A stretch of 29,190 bases of DNA. Origin: a virus. Every line of letters begins with the position of its first letter. The stretch's first letter is position 1. Shown here piece by piece: positions 3,782 through 8,737 of this stretch. The stretch spans positions 1 through 29,190 of IMG/VR virus record IMGVR_UViG_3300018416_000081. One strand, given 5' to 3'. A program made the translations under genes and the position numbers. The notes beneath the pieces were generated by a model that was not told the DNA's origin, did not search any database, and saw only the letters and a program-made list of their open reading frames with translations.

Positions 3782-4537
3782 ATGCCAAGAAAAACTGCTC
3801 TTAAGGTAGTTGAACAATCACAATATAATGGCAATGATCAAAAGACAGCAAGCGTAAGAATGAAAGTAAGGATAGATGATTTAAAAACCTGTCCTGCGTT
3901 AACTGTCAATCAACAAAACTTTTATGACGCATATAAAAAAGGGGATACAAATATTGCGTTGCATGGTGTAGCAGGTACTGGTAAAACATACATTGCTCTC
4001 TATAAAGCACTAGAGGATGTGTTGGATAAAGGCACACCAACAAATAAGATTCTCGTTATCCGATCAGCTGTCCAATCAAGAGACATCGGACATCTTCCAG
4101 GGGACGTAGCAGAAAAACTTGCTGTCTTCCAACAACCATATCAACAAATTTGTAATAATCTTTTTAATAGAAAAGACGCTTGGGCTAAGTTAGAAGAACA
4201 AGGTGTTATTGAATTCGTTTCTACATCGTTTATTCGTGGAACAACTTTTGATGATTGTATCATTATCGTTGACGAGATGCAGAATATGAATTTTGAAGAA
4301 ATTGATACCATCATGACACGTGTTGGTTATCGTTCAAGAATTATTTGGTGTGGCGATTACCGTCAAACAGATCTAAGAAAAAATAACGACAAGAGTGGCA
4401 TCCTACAATTCTTTGAGGTTGCTAAATACATGAAGTCATTTACTCGAGTAGAATTTCAAGCAGAAGATATTGTTCGTTCTGATCTTGTAAAAGAGTACAT
4501 TTTGGCTAAATTAGAATACGAAGATAGAGAGGACTAA
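3782..4537 (+). CDS. phoH: PhoH-like P-loop ATPase
   Basis: 251 residues. The Walker A motif is G-V-A-G-T-G-K-T (62-69) and the Walker B motif I-I-I-V-D-E-M-Q-N (160-168). Between them is V-I-R-S-A-V-Q-S-R-D-I-G-H-L-P-G-D-V-A-E-K (about 92-112), the signature of the PhoH family (V-x-R-P-x-V-x-x-G-x-x-x-G-x-L-P-G). After Walker B follows C-G-D-Y-R-Q-T-D (sensor region, G-D-x-x-Q-x-D in the family). PhoH proteins are cytoplasmic ATPases related to the N-terminal half of superfamily 1 helicases. They are very common in aquatic phages, and their role (RNA metabolism or phosphate stress) is unsettled. The N-terminal 40 residues are a basic, divergent extension. An AGGAGA site precedes the ATG. Confidence 0.9.
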   Translation: MPRKTALKVVEQSQYNGNDQKTASVRMKVRIDDLKTCPALTVNQQNFYDAYKKGDTNIALHGVAGTGKTYIALYKALEDVLDKGTPTNKILVIRSAVQSRDIGHLPGDVAEKLAVFQQPYQQICNNLFNRKDAWAKLEEQGVIEFVSTSFIRGTTFDDCIIIVDEMQNMNFEEIDTIMTRVGYRSRIIWCGDYRQTDLRKNNDKSGILQFFEVAKYMKSFTRVEFQAEDIVRSDLVKEYILAKLEYEDRED

Positions 4538-4539
4538 CA

Positions 4540-5415
4540 ATGAGTTTTGAATTTGATTTCACGAAGGAACATCTAGCCGAGATTATCTCTGCCGATGCAG
4601 ATGATTGGTATGATGCTTTGTGTAATTTGCTACCCAAGTACGGTATTACTACAGAGCGTAGAGTTGCGCATTTTCTAAGTCAGTGCGCACACGAATCAAA
4701 TGGTTTTAAGAGTTTGGAAGAGAATCTAAACTATTCAGCCAAAGCACTTCGTTCTGTATTTGGTCGTTACTTTGGTGATGCTCCAAAAGCAGACGCAGAT
4801 GAATATGCTCGCAATCCAGAGATGATTGCTAATCGTGTTTACAATGATGAGTTCCGTAAATACAAAATGGGTAACGTTCAAGAAGGCGATGGCTGGCGTT
4901 TCCGTGGTCGTGGTCTGAAGCAGTTGACTGGACGTGACAACTATACACGTTTCGGTAAAACTGTAGGCATGACAGCAGAAGAAGCATCAGAGTATGTTGC
5001 GACTCCAGCAGGTGCCATTGAATCAGCATGCTGGTTCTGGGGTGCGAATAATCTAAACGATATCGCTGACACAGATGATGTTGTGAAGATGACTAAGAAG
5101 ATTAATGGTGGCAACATCGGTCTTGAAGATCGTCAACGTCGTTACAAGCATGCGCTAGAAGTACTTGGTATGGATGCGGATGACTTGGGTACAGACGATG
5201 GAGATCACGCAGAGATTCTAGATGATATCGGTGTGCTACGTAAAGGATCACGTGGTGAAGGTGTCAAGATTATGCAGGAAGCACTAGGTCTTTCTGCTGA
5301 TGGTGTCTTTGGTCCAGGAACTGAACGTGCACTAAAAGAATGGCAAGCAAAGAACGGTCTCACTGCAGACGGTATTGCTGGACCAGCAACTTTCTCCAAG
5401 TTGTTAGACGATTAA
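4540..5415 (+). CDS. Endolysin: GH19 lysozyme/chitinase-like domain plus peptidoglycan-binding domain
   Basis: 291 residues in two domains. Residues 1-215 carry the GH19 fold: A-H-F-L-S-Q-C-A-H-E-S-N-G-F (likely catalytic Glu52), a second acidic pair near 60-61, F-R-G-R-G-L-K-Q-L-T-G-R-D-N-Y and K-I-N-G-G. Residues 230-290 form a PG_binding_1 repeat (L-R-K-G-S-R-G-E-G-V-K-I-M-Q...G-L-S-A-D-G-V-F-G-P-G-T), which anchors to peptidoglycan. There is no signal peptide, so release to the wall would need a holin or membrane collapse. It starts 2 nt after the PhoH-like stop. Its GH19 domain is clearly related to the domain inserted in gp5 of this phage (F-Y-G-R-G-F-I-Q-L-T-G-R-S-N-Y), suggesting duplication or shared origin. 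Confidence 0.9.
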   Translation: MSFEFDFTKEHLAEIISADADDWYDALCNLLPKYGITTERRVAHFLSQCAHESNGFKSLEENLNYSAKALRSVFGRYFGDAPKADADEYARNPEMIANRVYNDEFRKYKMGNVQEGDGWRFRGRGLKQLTGRDNYTRFGKTVGMTAEEASEYVATPAGAIESACWFWGANNLNDIADTDDVVKMTKKINGGNIGLEDRQRRYKHALEVLGMDADDLGTDDGDHAEILDDIGVLRKGSRGEGVKIMQEALGLSADGVFGPGTERALKEWQAKNGLTADGIAGPATFSKLLDD

Positions 5416-5417
5416 AC

Positions 5418-5446
5418 TTGACTTTTTCATACTCCTGTTGTATAAT
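5418..5446 (+). promoter_or_regulatory. Sigma70-type promoter, leaderless architecture
   Basis: TTGACT at 5418-5423, a 17-nt spacer and TATAAT at 5441-5446. The ATG at 5453 lies exactly 6 nt after the -10 box, where transcription is expected to begin, so the mRNA would start with its start codon. Confidence 0.8.
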
Positions 5447-5452
5447 GGGAGT

Positions 5453-6112
5453 ATGAAATTATTTAAGCACCACACTCATGTTATACCCAAACTCAACCGT
5501 ATCACTAGCGAAGACGGTTCGAGACTATATCAAACTCCAACTGGTTCAGCCTATCCTTCTGTCACAACGGTTACAGGATTGCTTAAAAAACAAGAAATCA
5601 TTGCATGGAGAAAACGAGTCGGAGAAAAAACAGCAAACGAAATCTCAGGACGTGCTGCCCGACGAGGAACCAGAGTACATAGTCTATGCGAAGACTATCT
5701 GTCCAATAAGCAAGTCGACATCGATATGTTTGATCAAGAAATGTGGAAGTCGTTCACGCCACTCTTGGATCGCATAGATAACATACACTGCTTAGAAACC
5801 CCACTATATTCAGACCACCTCCAAGTAGCAGGTACTGTCGACTGCATAGCAGAGTTTGACGGGAAAATGTCTGTCATTGATTTCAAAACTTCTAGGCGTA
5901 AAAAAGGATATGAGGATATTCATGATTACTTCATGCAATGTTCCGCATACGCTGTGGCTTTCGAAGAAAGAACTGGGATTCCAGTTCCTAGGTTAGTCAT
6001 TTTAATGGCAGTTGATGATGAAGATCCTCTAATTTTCGTTGAGAAACGAGATACATGGGTTGATAAATTCATCTCACTACGACAGGAGTACAGGAAATGG
6101 AAAAATTGCTAG
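5453..6112 (+). CDS. PD-(D/E)XK exonuclease (Cas4/RecB/MGME1-like)
   Basis: 219 residues from the ATG at 5453; a TTG at 5438 lies inside the promoter and is rejected. Core motifs: R-G-T-R-V-H-S-L-C-E (His76, Glu80), G-T-V-D-C-I-A-E (Asp130), V-I-D-F-K-T-S (Asp143 and Lys145 of D-x-K), and M-Q-C-S-A-Y (Gln162, motif IV Q-x-x-x-Y). This order is that of RecB-type PD-(D/E)XK exonucleases such as the mitochondrial MGME1 and phage relatives. There is no Cas4-type four-cysteine Fe-S signature. It probably degrades ssDNA ends in phage recombination, repair or host-DNA breakdown. The stop overlaps the following gene by 16 nt. Confidence 0.8.
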   Translation: MKLFKHHTHVIPKLNRITSEDGSRLYQTPTGSAYPSVTTVTGLLKKQEIIAWRKRVGEKTANEISGRAARRGTRVHSLCEDYLSNKQVDIDMFDQEMWKSFTPLLDRIDNIHCLETPLYSDHLQVAGTVDCIAEFDGKMSVIDFKTSRRKKGYEDIHDYFMQCSAYAVAFEERTGIPVPRLVILMAVDDEDPLIFVEKRDTWVDKFISLRQEYRKWKNC

Positions 6113-6417
6113 TTGGTTTATTTTTGGCTGCTATACCATTATCAGGAATTGGTGAAGAAAAACAAGTTGAGAGTTTCACGATGCTATCAAAAGTCGTCTG
6201 CTCTCAGGACTATGAGGGTGTCTATGATGTTCTTAGTAAAAAACATGGTGAAGTTCCAATAATCACCACAGAAGATGCTAATAGCCTAATCACTGTCTGG
6301 ATCAATCCAGATAATGGTCGTATGACATTCACAGAACAGACAGAAACAGAAATTTGTATTATCGGCATTGGAGAGAGAACCCAACTTTTTCCAGTAACAA
6401 AAGGTATTGCCTTGTAA
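6097..6417 (+). CDS. Small secreted protein, unknown function (106 aa)
   Basis: The ATG at 6097 overlaps the end of the exonuclease gene and is preceded by ACAGGA. Residues 1-20 form a typical signal peptide (M-E-K-L-L-V-G-L-F-L-A-A-I-P-L-S-G-I-G, then E-E-K), so the product probably goes to the periplasm or stays anchored. The mature part has two cysteines (near 35 and 87), W-I-N-P-D-N-G-R-M-T-F and I-C-I-I-G-I-G-E-R. No family is recognised. Its 3' end overlaps the -35 box of the tmRNA promoter. Confidence 0.65.
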   Translation: MEKLLVGLFLAAIPLSGIGEEKQVESFTMLSKVVCSQDYEGVYDVLSKKHGEVPIITTEDANSLITVWINPDNGRMTFTEQTETEICIIGIGERTQLFPVTKGIAL

Positions 6418-6435
6418 TAACTTTTGGGGTATAAT
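6407..6435 (+). promoter_or_regulatory. Sigma70-type promoter of the tmRNA gene
   Basis: TTGCCT at 6407-6412, a 17-nt spacer and TATAAT at 6430-6435. The predicted start is at about 6442, which coincides with the beginning of the acceptor piece of the permuted tmRNA. Confidence 0.7.
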
Positions 6436-6440
6436 AAATA

Positions 6441-6765
6441 ATATGCTTGAGTTGATGACTCTTGTTGGAGGGTTTCTGGACGTGGGTGCGATTCCCACCA
6501 CCTCCACCAAAAGTATATTGGAAGTTGTTCTAGTACAGCGTTGGTTATAACCAAACTTGCTTCCCAACATAACAAGACTGCCTTGTCTGCAGCGGTCCAG
6601 TATACTTTTGATGGGGGTGAACAGGTTCGACAGGTTCATGAAGGCACGACGAGACGATAGCGTTAATGTAAATGCAAACGATAGCACTTACGCACTAGCT
6701 GCCTGATAACAGGTAAGTAGGAGTTTCAGTAGGTTTCTTGGCAACAGAATAACCTACTACTTTTG
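6441..6765 (+). ncRNA. ssrA: Circularly permuted (two-piece) tmRNA with proteolysis tag ANDSTYALAA
   Basis: The acceptor piece comes first (about 6441-6509). It ends in a T-arm (stem GTGGG 6482-6486 with CCCAC 6494-6498, 7-nt loop), acceptor strand CACCTCC (6499-6505), then A-CCA (6506-6509). The coding piece starts at 6613 with GGGGGTG, which pairs with all seven acceptor positions and gives a G3-U70 wobble, the identity element of alanyl-tRNA synthetase. It continues with GGTTCGAC, a conserved tmRNA D-loop-like sequence. The tag frame starts at resume codon GCA (6674-6676) and reads A-N-D-S-T-Y-A-L-A-A to TGA (6704-6706), followed by hairpin CCTG-ATAA-CAGG and a longer one, AGTAGGTT/AACCTACT. 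tmRNA rescues stalled ribosomes with SmpB and tags the product for ClpXP. The 3' end of the coding piece is approximate. Permutation is known from alphaproteobacteria, some betaproteobacteria and cyanobacteria. Confidence 0.92.
6510..6612 (+). other. Intervening spacer of the permuted pre-tmRNA, closed by an inverted repeat
   Basis: The segment between CCA (6509) and the mature 5' end (6613) is bounded by AAAAGTATATTGG (about 6509-6521) and CCAGTATACTTTT (about 6597-6609), complementary at all 13 positions if one G-U pair is allowed. Inside lie a perfect palindrome TTGGTTATAACCAA (about 6541-6554) and a small AGAC/GTCT hairpin. It is expected to fold back, bring the acceptor strands together and be removed by processing nucleases such as RNase P at the 5' side. 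Confidence 0.8.
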
Positions 6766-6786
6766 AATAAAACTTAGGAGGGCATT

Positions 6787-6978
6787 ATGCTTCATAAGAT
6801 TTCAGATATGTGTGATGTTGTTAATGTGATGTATGAAAAGAGTATGAACTTGCGTCGCCTGAAATATGACACTCCCAAAGAACATCAAGACCAAGCAGTT
6901 ATTCAACACCTAGTTGAAGATATACAAGCACTCGCTTTGCAGATTGGTGTTGATAAATCAAGATACGTAAAGAGATGA
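6787..6978 (+). CDS. Hypothetical protein (63 aa)
   Basis: A strong AGGAGG at about 6777-6782 precedes the ATG by 4 nt. The protein is helical and mixed-charge (C-D-V-V-N-V-M-Y-E-K-S-M-N-L-R-R, then Q-H-L-V-E-D-I-Q-A-L-A-L-Q-I-G-V), without a recognisable domain. It directly follows the tmRNA coding piece and may be transcribed through it. It couples to the next gene by an ATGA overlap at 6975-6978. Confidence 0.65.
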   Translation: MLHKISDMCDVVNVMYEKSMNLRRLKYDTPKEHQDQAVIQHLVEDIQALALQIGVDKSRYVKR

Positions 6979-7485: not shown

Positions 7486-8250
7486 ATGATGTCTAATAAA
7501 GCACTACTATTCTGCACATTCCTATGTGCGTTGATGATTTTACTGCTATTCAATATGAGAGATAACGCACAAGCCTTGACATTGCATGAAGATGTGCGTA
7601 TAATTATCTCTAAACCTCCAGCCCCTAAACCTGATGTGAAACATATTGTTAAGGTTGAATACCTAACATATAAATCATCAACTAGAGATTGGAGAAACGA
7701 AAGTTATCTTAATGATCACTACTACATCCAACCGATTGAAATTCAAGAACAGATTAACTGTCTGGCACTGAACATCTATCATGAGGCAGCAGTAGAGACT
7801 AATAAAGGTAAGTTAGCGGTGGCATTCGTCACTTTGAATAGAATGTATTCTGATAGATTCCCAAACAGTATTTGTGGGGTAGTATACGATGCTAAGTATT
7901 CAAGTTGGTGGAAAGAAAACCACGACAAAGAAGTACCACTGTTAAACCGATGTCAATTTAGTTGGTTTTGTGATGGCAAACCTGACGAAGTACGAAGTGA
8001 AAAGGCATTTGAAACTATAACTAGAATTGCGACTTATGCAGTACTAAATTATAATTATGTTGAAGATCCTACTTACGGAGCAATGTGGTATCATGCATAC
8101 TATGTTAAGCCTAGTTGGAGATATGATTTCACAAAGACGGCAACAATTGGCGCACATATTTTTTATAGGACGAAAACTAATAATGAAGAAAATGAATCTA
8201 CAAATTTCGGAAGAAAACCAGAACCAATCGTTTTTCTTGCTTATCGGTGA
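7486..8250 (+). CDS. SleB-like (Hydrolase_2) cell-wall hydrolase with N-terminal signal/anchor
   Basis: 254 residues from the ATG at 7486, 1 nt after the preceding stop, with AGGAAG at 7476-7481; upstream in-frame starts would bury it in the previous gene. Residues 6-22 are a hydrophobic signal or anchor (A-L-L-F-C-T-F-L-C-A-L-M-I-L-L-L), with a possible cleavage after A-Q-A. The catalytic domain starts near residue 91 with C-L-A-L-N-I-Y-H-E-A, the signature of SleB/CwlJ hydrolases (glutamate catalytic), followed by V-A-F-V-T-L-N-R-M, F-P-N-S-I-C-G-V-V and C-Q-F-S-W-F-C-D-G-K. SleB enzymes are lytic transglycosylases of peptidoglycan. A secreted form could act as a second, holin-independent lysis enzyme. 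The last 68 nt overlap the ClpP-like gene. Confidence 0.85.
   Translation: MMSNKALLFCTFLCALMILLLFNMRDNAQALTLHEDVRIIISKPPAPKPDVKHIVKVEYLTYKSSTRDWRNESYLNDHYYIQPIEIQEQINCLALNIYHEAAVETNKGKLAVAFVTLNRMYSDRFPNSICGVVYDAKYSSWWKENHDKEVPLLNRCQFSWFCDGKPDEVRSEKAFETITRIATYAVLNYNYVEDPTYGAMWYHAYYVKPSWRYDFTKTATIGAHIFYRTKTNNEENESTNFGRKPEPIVFLAYR
7576..7604 (+). promoter_or_regulatory. Perfect sigma70 consensus inside the SleB-like gene
   Basis: TTGACA at 7576-7581, a 17-nt spacer and TATAAT at 7599-7604, a full consensus match within coding sequence. It would start near 7611 and could serve the ClpP-like gene at 8183 or yield a shortened SleB domain. A chance match is possible because it overlaps codons of the hydrolase. 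Confidence 0.5.
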
Positions 8251-8737
8251 GATCACTCTGGAAACATGTAAAGAAATGATCGAATGGATTCTATCTGCTA
8301 ATTTTACTGAAGAGAAACCTGAAGTCTTAAATGTTATTATAACTTCCCCAGGAGGGGATTTGAATGCTGCGTTTGCTGTTATTGACGTTATGCGTGGTAG
8401 TGCTATACCAATTCGCACCATTGGCTTAGGACAAGTTGCTTCTGCTGGTTTAATGATTTTCTTAGCTGGAGAACGTGGGCAACGAATCCTTACACCTAAC
8501 ACTTCAATTCTGTCTCACCAGTATACATGGGGTGCTTTTGGTAAAGAACACGAACTGTTTGCAACTATTAAAGAGTATGATCTTACAACTAAGAAGGTTA
8601 TTGATCTTTACAAGAAAACAACAGGATTATCTGAGGCTAAGATTCGTGAATTTCTGCTACCTCCACAAGACGTCTGGCTCTCTCCATCAGAGGCTAAGAA
8701 GTTGAAGATCTGTGACCAAGTGAAAGAATTGTCTTGA
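8183..8737 (+). CDS. clpP: ClpP-like serine protease with intact catalytic triad
   Basis: The frame is open upstream, but the first 40 residues there are shadow of the SleB gene; starts at 8183 or 8192 (M-K-K-M) give the normal N-terminus. 184 residues from 8183, near bacterial ClpP (193 mature). The triad is visible: Ser87 in G-Q-V-A-S-A-G, His112 in I-L-S-H-Q-Y, Asp163 in P-Q-D-V-W-L-S-P-S-E-A, matching E. coli Ser/His/Asp and the S-x-x-E-A-x-x-x-x-x-x-D end. The oxyanion strand I-I-T-S-P-G-G-D is also present. ClpP forms a 14-subunit barrel needing an AAA+ partner (ClpX or ClpA); none is seen here, so it would use the host unfoldase or process virion proteins. Its closeness to tmRNA is notable. 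Confidence 0.88.
   Translation: MKKMNLQISEENQNQSFFLLIGEITLETCKEMIEWILSANFTEEKPEVLNVIITSPGGDLNAAFAVIDVMRGSAIPIRTIGLGQVASAGLMIFLAGERGQRILTPNTSILSHQYTWGAFGKEHELFATIKEYDLTTKKVIDLYKKTTGLSEAKIREFLLPPQDVWLSPSEAKKLKICDQVKELS

Follow-up and report, generated by a model that had tools for sequence, protein, structure and literature searches.

Does the segment at about 6441-6765 (plus strand) of an uncultured T4-like phage encode a working two-piece tmRNA and, if so, from which lineage does this RNA descend and what would it do during infection? The DNA analysed, called the window throughout, is a stretch of 29,190 nt (positions 1-29,190 of IMGVR_UViG_3300018416_000081), a fragment of about 29 kb from an uncultured virus. 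We consider it highly probable (roughly 0.88) that in this segment a T4-like phage carries an intact, permuted ssrA gene, whose two-piece tmRNA would rescue stalled ribosomes during infection and tag their peptides.

Anatomy of the permuted gene and its precursor

A sequence-only reading of the window had proposed that the phage encodes a two-piece tmRNA, circularly permuted and with the tag ANDSTYALAA, and two programs bear this out. ARAGORN reports a permuted-class tmRNA with this tag at 6416-6797, and RF04321 (tmRNA_permuted) matches 6450-6706 over its full model (1-213) with 93.3 bits and an E value of 4.2e-17 (cut-off, 47 bits). The alphaproteobacterial model RF01849 also scores above its cut-off (70.6 bits; cut-off, 50), and the betaproteobacterial model RF01850 gives 74.2 bits (E 1.8e-24), below its cut-off of 84. 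For most relatives of the window tmRNA, RF01850 is the top-scoring model of the clan and is passed; the window tmRNA is among the lower-scoring copies. A blastn search with the window tmRNA against 50,697 phage records gave no match, which says little, since BUCT-ZZ01 and Melnitz, discussed below, have homologous genes whose DNA similarity is too low for such a search. The features on which the argument draws are as follows.

3782..4537, plus strand: PhoH-like ATPase, marker of the conserved locus
5438..6112, plus strand: PDDEXK exonuclease, conserved neighbour upstream of the tmRNA locus
6407..6435, plus strand: sigma70-type promoter TTGCCT-17-TATAAT (10/12 matches), overlapping the end of the upstream ORF (scan and relatives)
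6441..6509, plus strand: acceptor (3'-tRNA-like) RNA piece with CCA end (direct reading, ARAGORN, Rfam; 5' end approximate)
6460..6467 and 6647..6654, plus strand: strands UCUUGUUG and CGACGAGA of a helix predicted to join the two RNA pieces (lowest-energy fold only)
6482..6498, plus strand: T arm GTGGG-TGCGATT-CCCAC, 5-bp stem and 7-nt loop TGCGATT (direct reading, Rfam)
6499..6509, plus strand: acceptor 3' strand CACCTCC (6499-6505), A73 (6506) and encoded CCA (6507-6509) (direct reading, covariation)
6510..6612, plus strand: intervening sequence of 103 nt, predicted to be excised (fold, covariation)
6613..6619, plus strand: acceptor 5' strand GGGGGTG, with a predicted RNase P cut before 6613 (direct reading, covariation)
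6613..6765, plus strand: coding (mRNA-like) RNA piece (ARAGORN, Rfam; 3' end approximate)
6674..6709, plus strand: tag frame ANDSTYALAA followed by TGA TAA (direct reading, ARAGORN)
6728..6758, plus strand: 3' hairpin AGTAGGTT...AACCTACT, loop with GGCAACAGAAT (direct reading, fold; conserved in relatives)
8183..8737, plus strand: ClpP-like serine peptidase, 184 aa, triad S87/H112/D163

Direct reading confirms that the acceptor half, with its T arm and CACCTCC-A-CCA end, lies 5' of the coding half that begins with GGGGGTG; the coordinates, the tag, the seven acceptor pairs and the G3-U70 pair given by the sequence-only reading all hold. The two acceptor strands form 7/7 pairs, of which the third is the G-U pair, and a D-loop-like region and the resume site lie between the 5' strand and the tag frame. 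Position 55 of the T loop, usually U, is G in the window tmRNA and may weaken the tRNA elbow. Together with the sub-cut-off beta score, this G55 marks the window tmRNA as a divergent copy.

The acceptor stem is extended by 12 bp between 6509-6520 and 6598-6609, with covariation in relatives. Because A76 and the 11 bases after it are paired with the 12-base stretch 5' of the leader, the precursor would form one long hairpin in which the CCA lies opposite the leader, a conserved GAT/AAT that follows the intervening-sequence stem in the phage tmRNAs. The intervening sequence measures 46-147 nt in phage tmRNAs and mostly 22-57 nt in correctly read alphaproteobacterial copies. The promoter scan alone was barely above chance (3 vs 2.0 in shuffles); at the equivalent position, promoters with 10-12/12 matches are found in seven relatives (L012, L019, L031, L033, L038, L239 and L246), two of which (L019 and L031) carry a perfect TTGACA-17-TATAAT.

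The tag codons GCA AAC GAT AGC ACT TAC GCA CTA GCT GCC TGA TAA encode ANDSTYALAA and two stops, and every relative called by ARAGORN likewise has an open tag frame. For phage tmRNAs, ARAGORN reported 24 tag strings, of which two have a misplaced start; all 24 end in -LAA, -IAA, -MAA or -LVA, which argues that the degradation signal persists while the central part of the tag drifts. Unusual ends (ANDSEYRLVA, ANDSRFLMAA and ANDEQFLMAA) occur at L043 8280-8649, L055 6386-6757, L031 3189-3563 and L069 8236-8627; these tags would be useful probes of protease preference. The tag was rejected as a host marker, as 16 of the 18 genome contigs with the tag pattern carry one-piece tmRNAs, mostly of Burkholderiales. 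One of the remaining two (L093) had no ARAGORN call, and the other (L102), binned in an 'uncultured Alteromonadales' MAG, has the single permuted tmRNA, with the tag ANDSTYALAA; it looks like a phage contig, which is either misbinned or a hint of the host.

Selection and ancestry of the phage tmRNAs

Covariation was assessed in 23 distinct permuted tmRNAs from related phage contigs, including those of the window and Melnitz. The acceptor stem retains 7/7 pairs in all 23 sequences, even though at 4-69 there are 13 sequences with G-C and 10 with C-G, and both 5-68 and 6-67 appear in four standard forms; all 23 have G-U at 3-70 while the neighbouring pairs covary. When strands were swapped between relatives, acceptor pairing fell from 7.0/7 to a mean of 5.65/7, and 0 of 20,000 swap permutations paired as well as the real strands, counts that are not probabilities, the sequences being related by descent. 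The intervening-sequence stem likewise has 11.3/12 pairs in the real combinations and 7.6 in the swapped ones. Without selection, it is difficult to explain how three acceptor pairs came to change on both sides; together with the constant G3-U70, this argues that the tmRNA gene is under selection. The covariation thus suggests that selection in phages maintains both the alanine-charging pair and the tag and that such RNAs are in use.

A tree of 59 permuted tmRNAs, drawn with a midpoint root only and with wrong-register bacterial rows left out, places the window and 23 phage tmRNAs in one group of 24 members (99/95.8), in which the window tmRNA lies next to that of L012 (100/99). A branch of 99/93 separates the phage rows and five beta rows from the alphaproteobacterial rows and Melnitz; one of these beta rows, L184, sits on a long branch apart in the drawn tree, where the internal branch is weak (64/42). 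An alphaproteobacterial placement, with the RF01849 hit taken as a hint of the host, was rejected on the basis of this position outside the alphaproteobacterial group and of the relatives' beta scores. The sequence-only reading suggested capture from, or adaptation to, a host lineage that has a two-piece tmRNA; the tree is compatible with such an origin, probably on the betaproteobacterial side. By sequence comparison, the window and Melnitz carry different tmRNA lineages at one locus, either through replacement or through long divergence.

The locus, its ClpP-like neighbour and possible roles

Proteins encoded around the tmRNA in the window have matches among the T4-type families of tail, baseplate, head closure, DNA end protector and ssDNA-binding protein; in a comparison of the last of these, Pelagibacter phage HTVC008M and Methylophilales phage Melnitz come closest (52-55% identity). 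A search with PhoH alone yielded 80 viral contigs, many of which have a permuted tmRNA just downstream, and Rfam finds one in 18 of the 39 longer records of this set. The view that a permuted tmRNA is unusual in a T4-like phage is therefore not upheld, particularly as Melnitz has one at the same locus. For the 106-aa ORF upstream of the tmRNA, the only relative is in one near-identical contig. ARAGORN missed five tmRNAs that Rfam found (L017, L021, L258, L284 and L287). In L017, an HNH-endonuclease-like ORF (MSHLHHIIPKHMGG...) lies at about 4040-4690 between the promoter and the tmRNA, and a partial copy of the tmRNA leader remains upstream of it; judged by eye, the arrangement resembles that of a homing endonuclease which uses the tmRNA locus. 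Elsewhere in the window, 740-997 encodes a small GroES-like protein (PF00166, E 1.1e-06), a candidate phage co-chaperonin.

In the mechanism that we propose, the gene architecture, the selection on the acceptor and precursor stems and the open -LAA tag are observed, and we infer processing, charging, tagging and degradation from known tmRNA biology. A single precursor transcript, probably from the tmRNA's own promoter, would be cut 5' of G6613 and 3' of the CCA that ends at 6509, so that the 103-nt hairpin is lost and two base-paired RNAs are left. The two-piece tmRNA would receive alanine by virtue of G3-U70, and host SmpB and EF-Tu would deliver it to ribosomes that stall on broken mRNA in the infected cell. 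A search that detects SmpB in 10 of 14 control genomes found none in 25 related records, and use of the host protein is therefore likely. The sequence-only reading had also envisaged that the phage gene might replace host ssrA. Addition of ANDSTYALAA would then free the ribosome and mark the peptide for ClpXP-type degradation.

The unexpected element of the locus is the ClpP-like ORF, which starts 1.4 kb downstream of the tmRNA and matches PF00574 (E 8.5e-28) and ClpP chains in the PDB (E about 1e-15). Linkage was counted over ClpP clusters at 90% identity with enough upstream sequence, leaving out clusters first found by the tmRNA pattern; this gave 13 testable clusters, 10 from a ClpP-only query of viral contigs and three from the PhoH query. 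Of the 13, 12 (9/10 for the ClpP-only query) have a same-strand permuted tmRNA located 1.2-3.8 kb upstream of ClpP, and the linked clusters cover ClpP identities of 55-100%. Counted by contig in the PhoH set, a permuted tmRNA is present in 5/5 contigs with a neighbouring ClpP versus 13/34 without. A role of the ClpP-like protein as head maturation protease is disfavoured by the separate T4-type S77 head protease of the long contigs.

It is possible, although we hold it to be doubtful, that the tmRNA and the phage ClpP-like subunit form a pair in which tagged proteins pass through host ClpX/ClpA to a phage-made or mixed ClpP, which would recycle ribosomes and amino acids; this would extend our preferred explanation rather than oppose it. 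Apart from the linkage itself, the Ser-His-Asp triad intact in 65/65 ClpP-like sequences compared and the separate S77 protease are in keeping with such a pair, and in BUCT-ZZ01 the two genes lie at a great distance from each other, which means that their co-occurrence is not a matter of adjacency alone. The association is one-sided, however: Melnitz and the long contigs behind L044, L069 and L083 have the tmRNA without ClpP. The exceptional cluster (L259-L261) has ClpP without a tmRNA within the available stretch. The clusters are not independent, and common ancestry of the locus could by itself yield the linkage and account for much of the association, which is why we keep our confidence in the pair low. 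Equally tentative is the broader picture of a widespread aquatic T4-like phage group with its own rescue and proteolysis pair, usually in one gene block and working with host ClpX/ClpA.

Two further explanations compete with ribosome rescue by the phage tmRNA. The phage RNA might instead compete with host tmRNA for SmpB or ribosomes and thereby damp host quality control; the tag-less tmRNA form of phage DS6A, cited in PMC11915505 as inhibiting the endogenous tmRNA when expressed in E. coli, would be a precedent, but an inhibitor would not need the full -ALAA tag kept here or the full tags kept in relatives, and we regard this role as very unlikely. That the gene is a decaying, functionless remnant of a transduction event or of an integration site in ssrA, as G55, the low score of the window copy and the known use of ssrA as a phage integration site (discussed in PMC9004378) could suggest, is extremely improbable given the two-sided changes that preserve the acceptor and precursor stems, the open tag frames of all ARAGORN-reported relatives, the constancy of the locus across a diverse clade and the completeness of both RNA pieces, which are not an attachment-site fragment.

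Comparison with known systems

Two-piece phage tmRNA is already known, and the window is a divergent additional case. In 2022, such tmRNAs were described in marine and aquatic phages, with 53 structures among the screened phage genomes, 50 of them aquatic, and in 17 of 47 Melnitz-cluster contigs (PMC9004378); a tmRNA database of 2025, in which RF04321 is defined, contains 79 sequences from phages (PMC11915505). To this published phenomenon, the present group adds a phage clade probably of betaproteobacterial type.

Melnitz (MZ577097; PMC9004378) is, like the window phage, T4-like (Kyanoviridae) with a permuted gene, and the two share the order PhoH, PDDEXK nuclease, small ORFs and tmRNA, of which the tmRNA is annotated in the Melnitz isolate, except that the window has an extra endolysin gene. 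Both tmRNAs have 7/7 acceptor pairs with G3-U70 and a long paired intervening sequence (142 nt in Melnitz). The Melnitz tmRNA groups with alphaproteobacteria, whereas that of the window probably falls on the betaproteobacterial side, and the tag is ANDNYVPVDYALAA in Melnitz versus ANDSTYALAA in the window. A riboswitch is reported in Melnitz and the window has no Rfam riboswitch match; conversely, Melnitz has no ClpP match and the window has the ClpP-like ORF.

The betaproteobacterial tmRNAs of RF01850 share with the window ANDxxFALAA-type tags and probably their side of the tree, but their intervening sequence is 4-43 nt in five bacterial copies versus 46-147 nt in phages. The nearest isolate by ClpP is Synechococcus phage BUCT-ZZ01 (ON615601), whose ClpP-like protein is 51% identical to that of the window. 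It carries a permuted beta-type tmRNA (minus strand, about 116861-117279, corresponding to L292 16861-17279; 94.5 bits, tag ANDETFSMALAA), unannotated in the record and located inside an array of 28 tRNA calls; unlike in the window, this tmRNA is about 41 kb from the ClpP gene. This unannotated copy and the ARAGORN misses of copies found by Rfam suggest that surveys undercount phage tmRNAs. A partial literature search found no paper linking phage tmRNA to phage ClpP. The recurrence of a complete ClpP-like neighbour predicts that these phages bring, besides an RNA for tagging, a part of the machinery for degradation, and the newer aspect of this locus is the nearby ClpP-like protease gene in the window and in most relatives tested.
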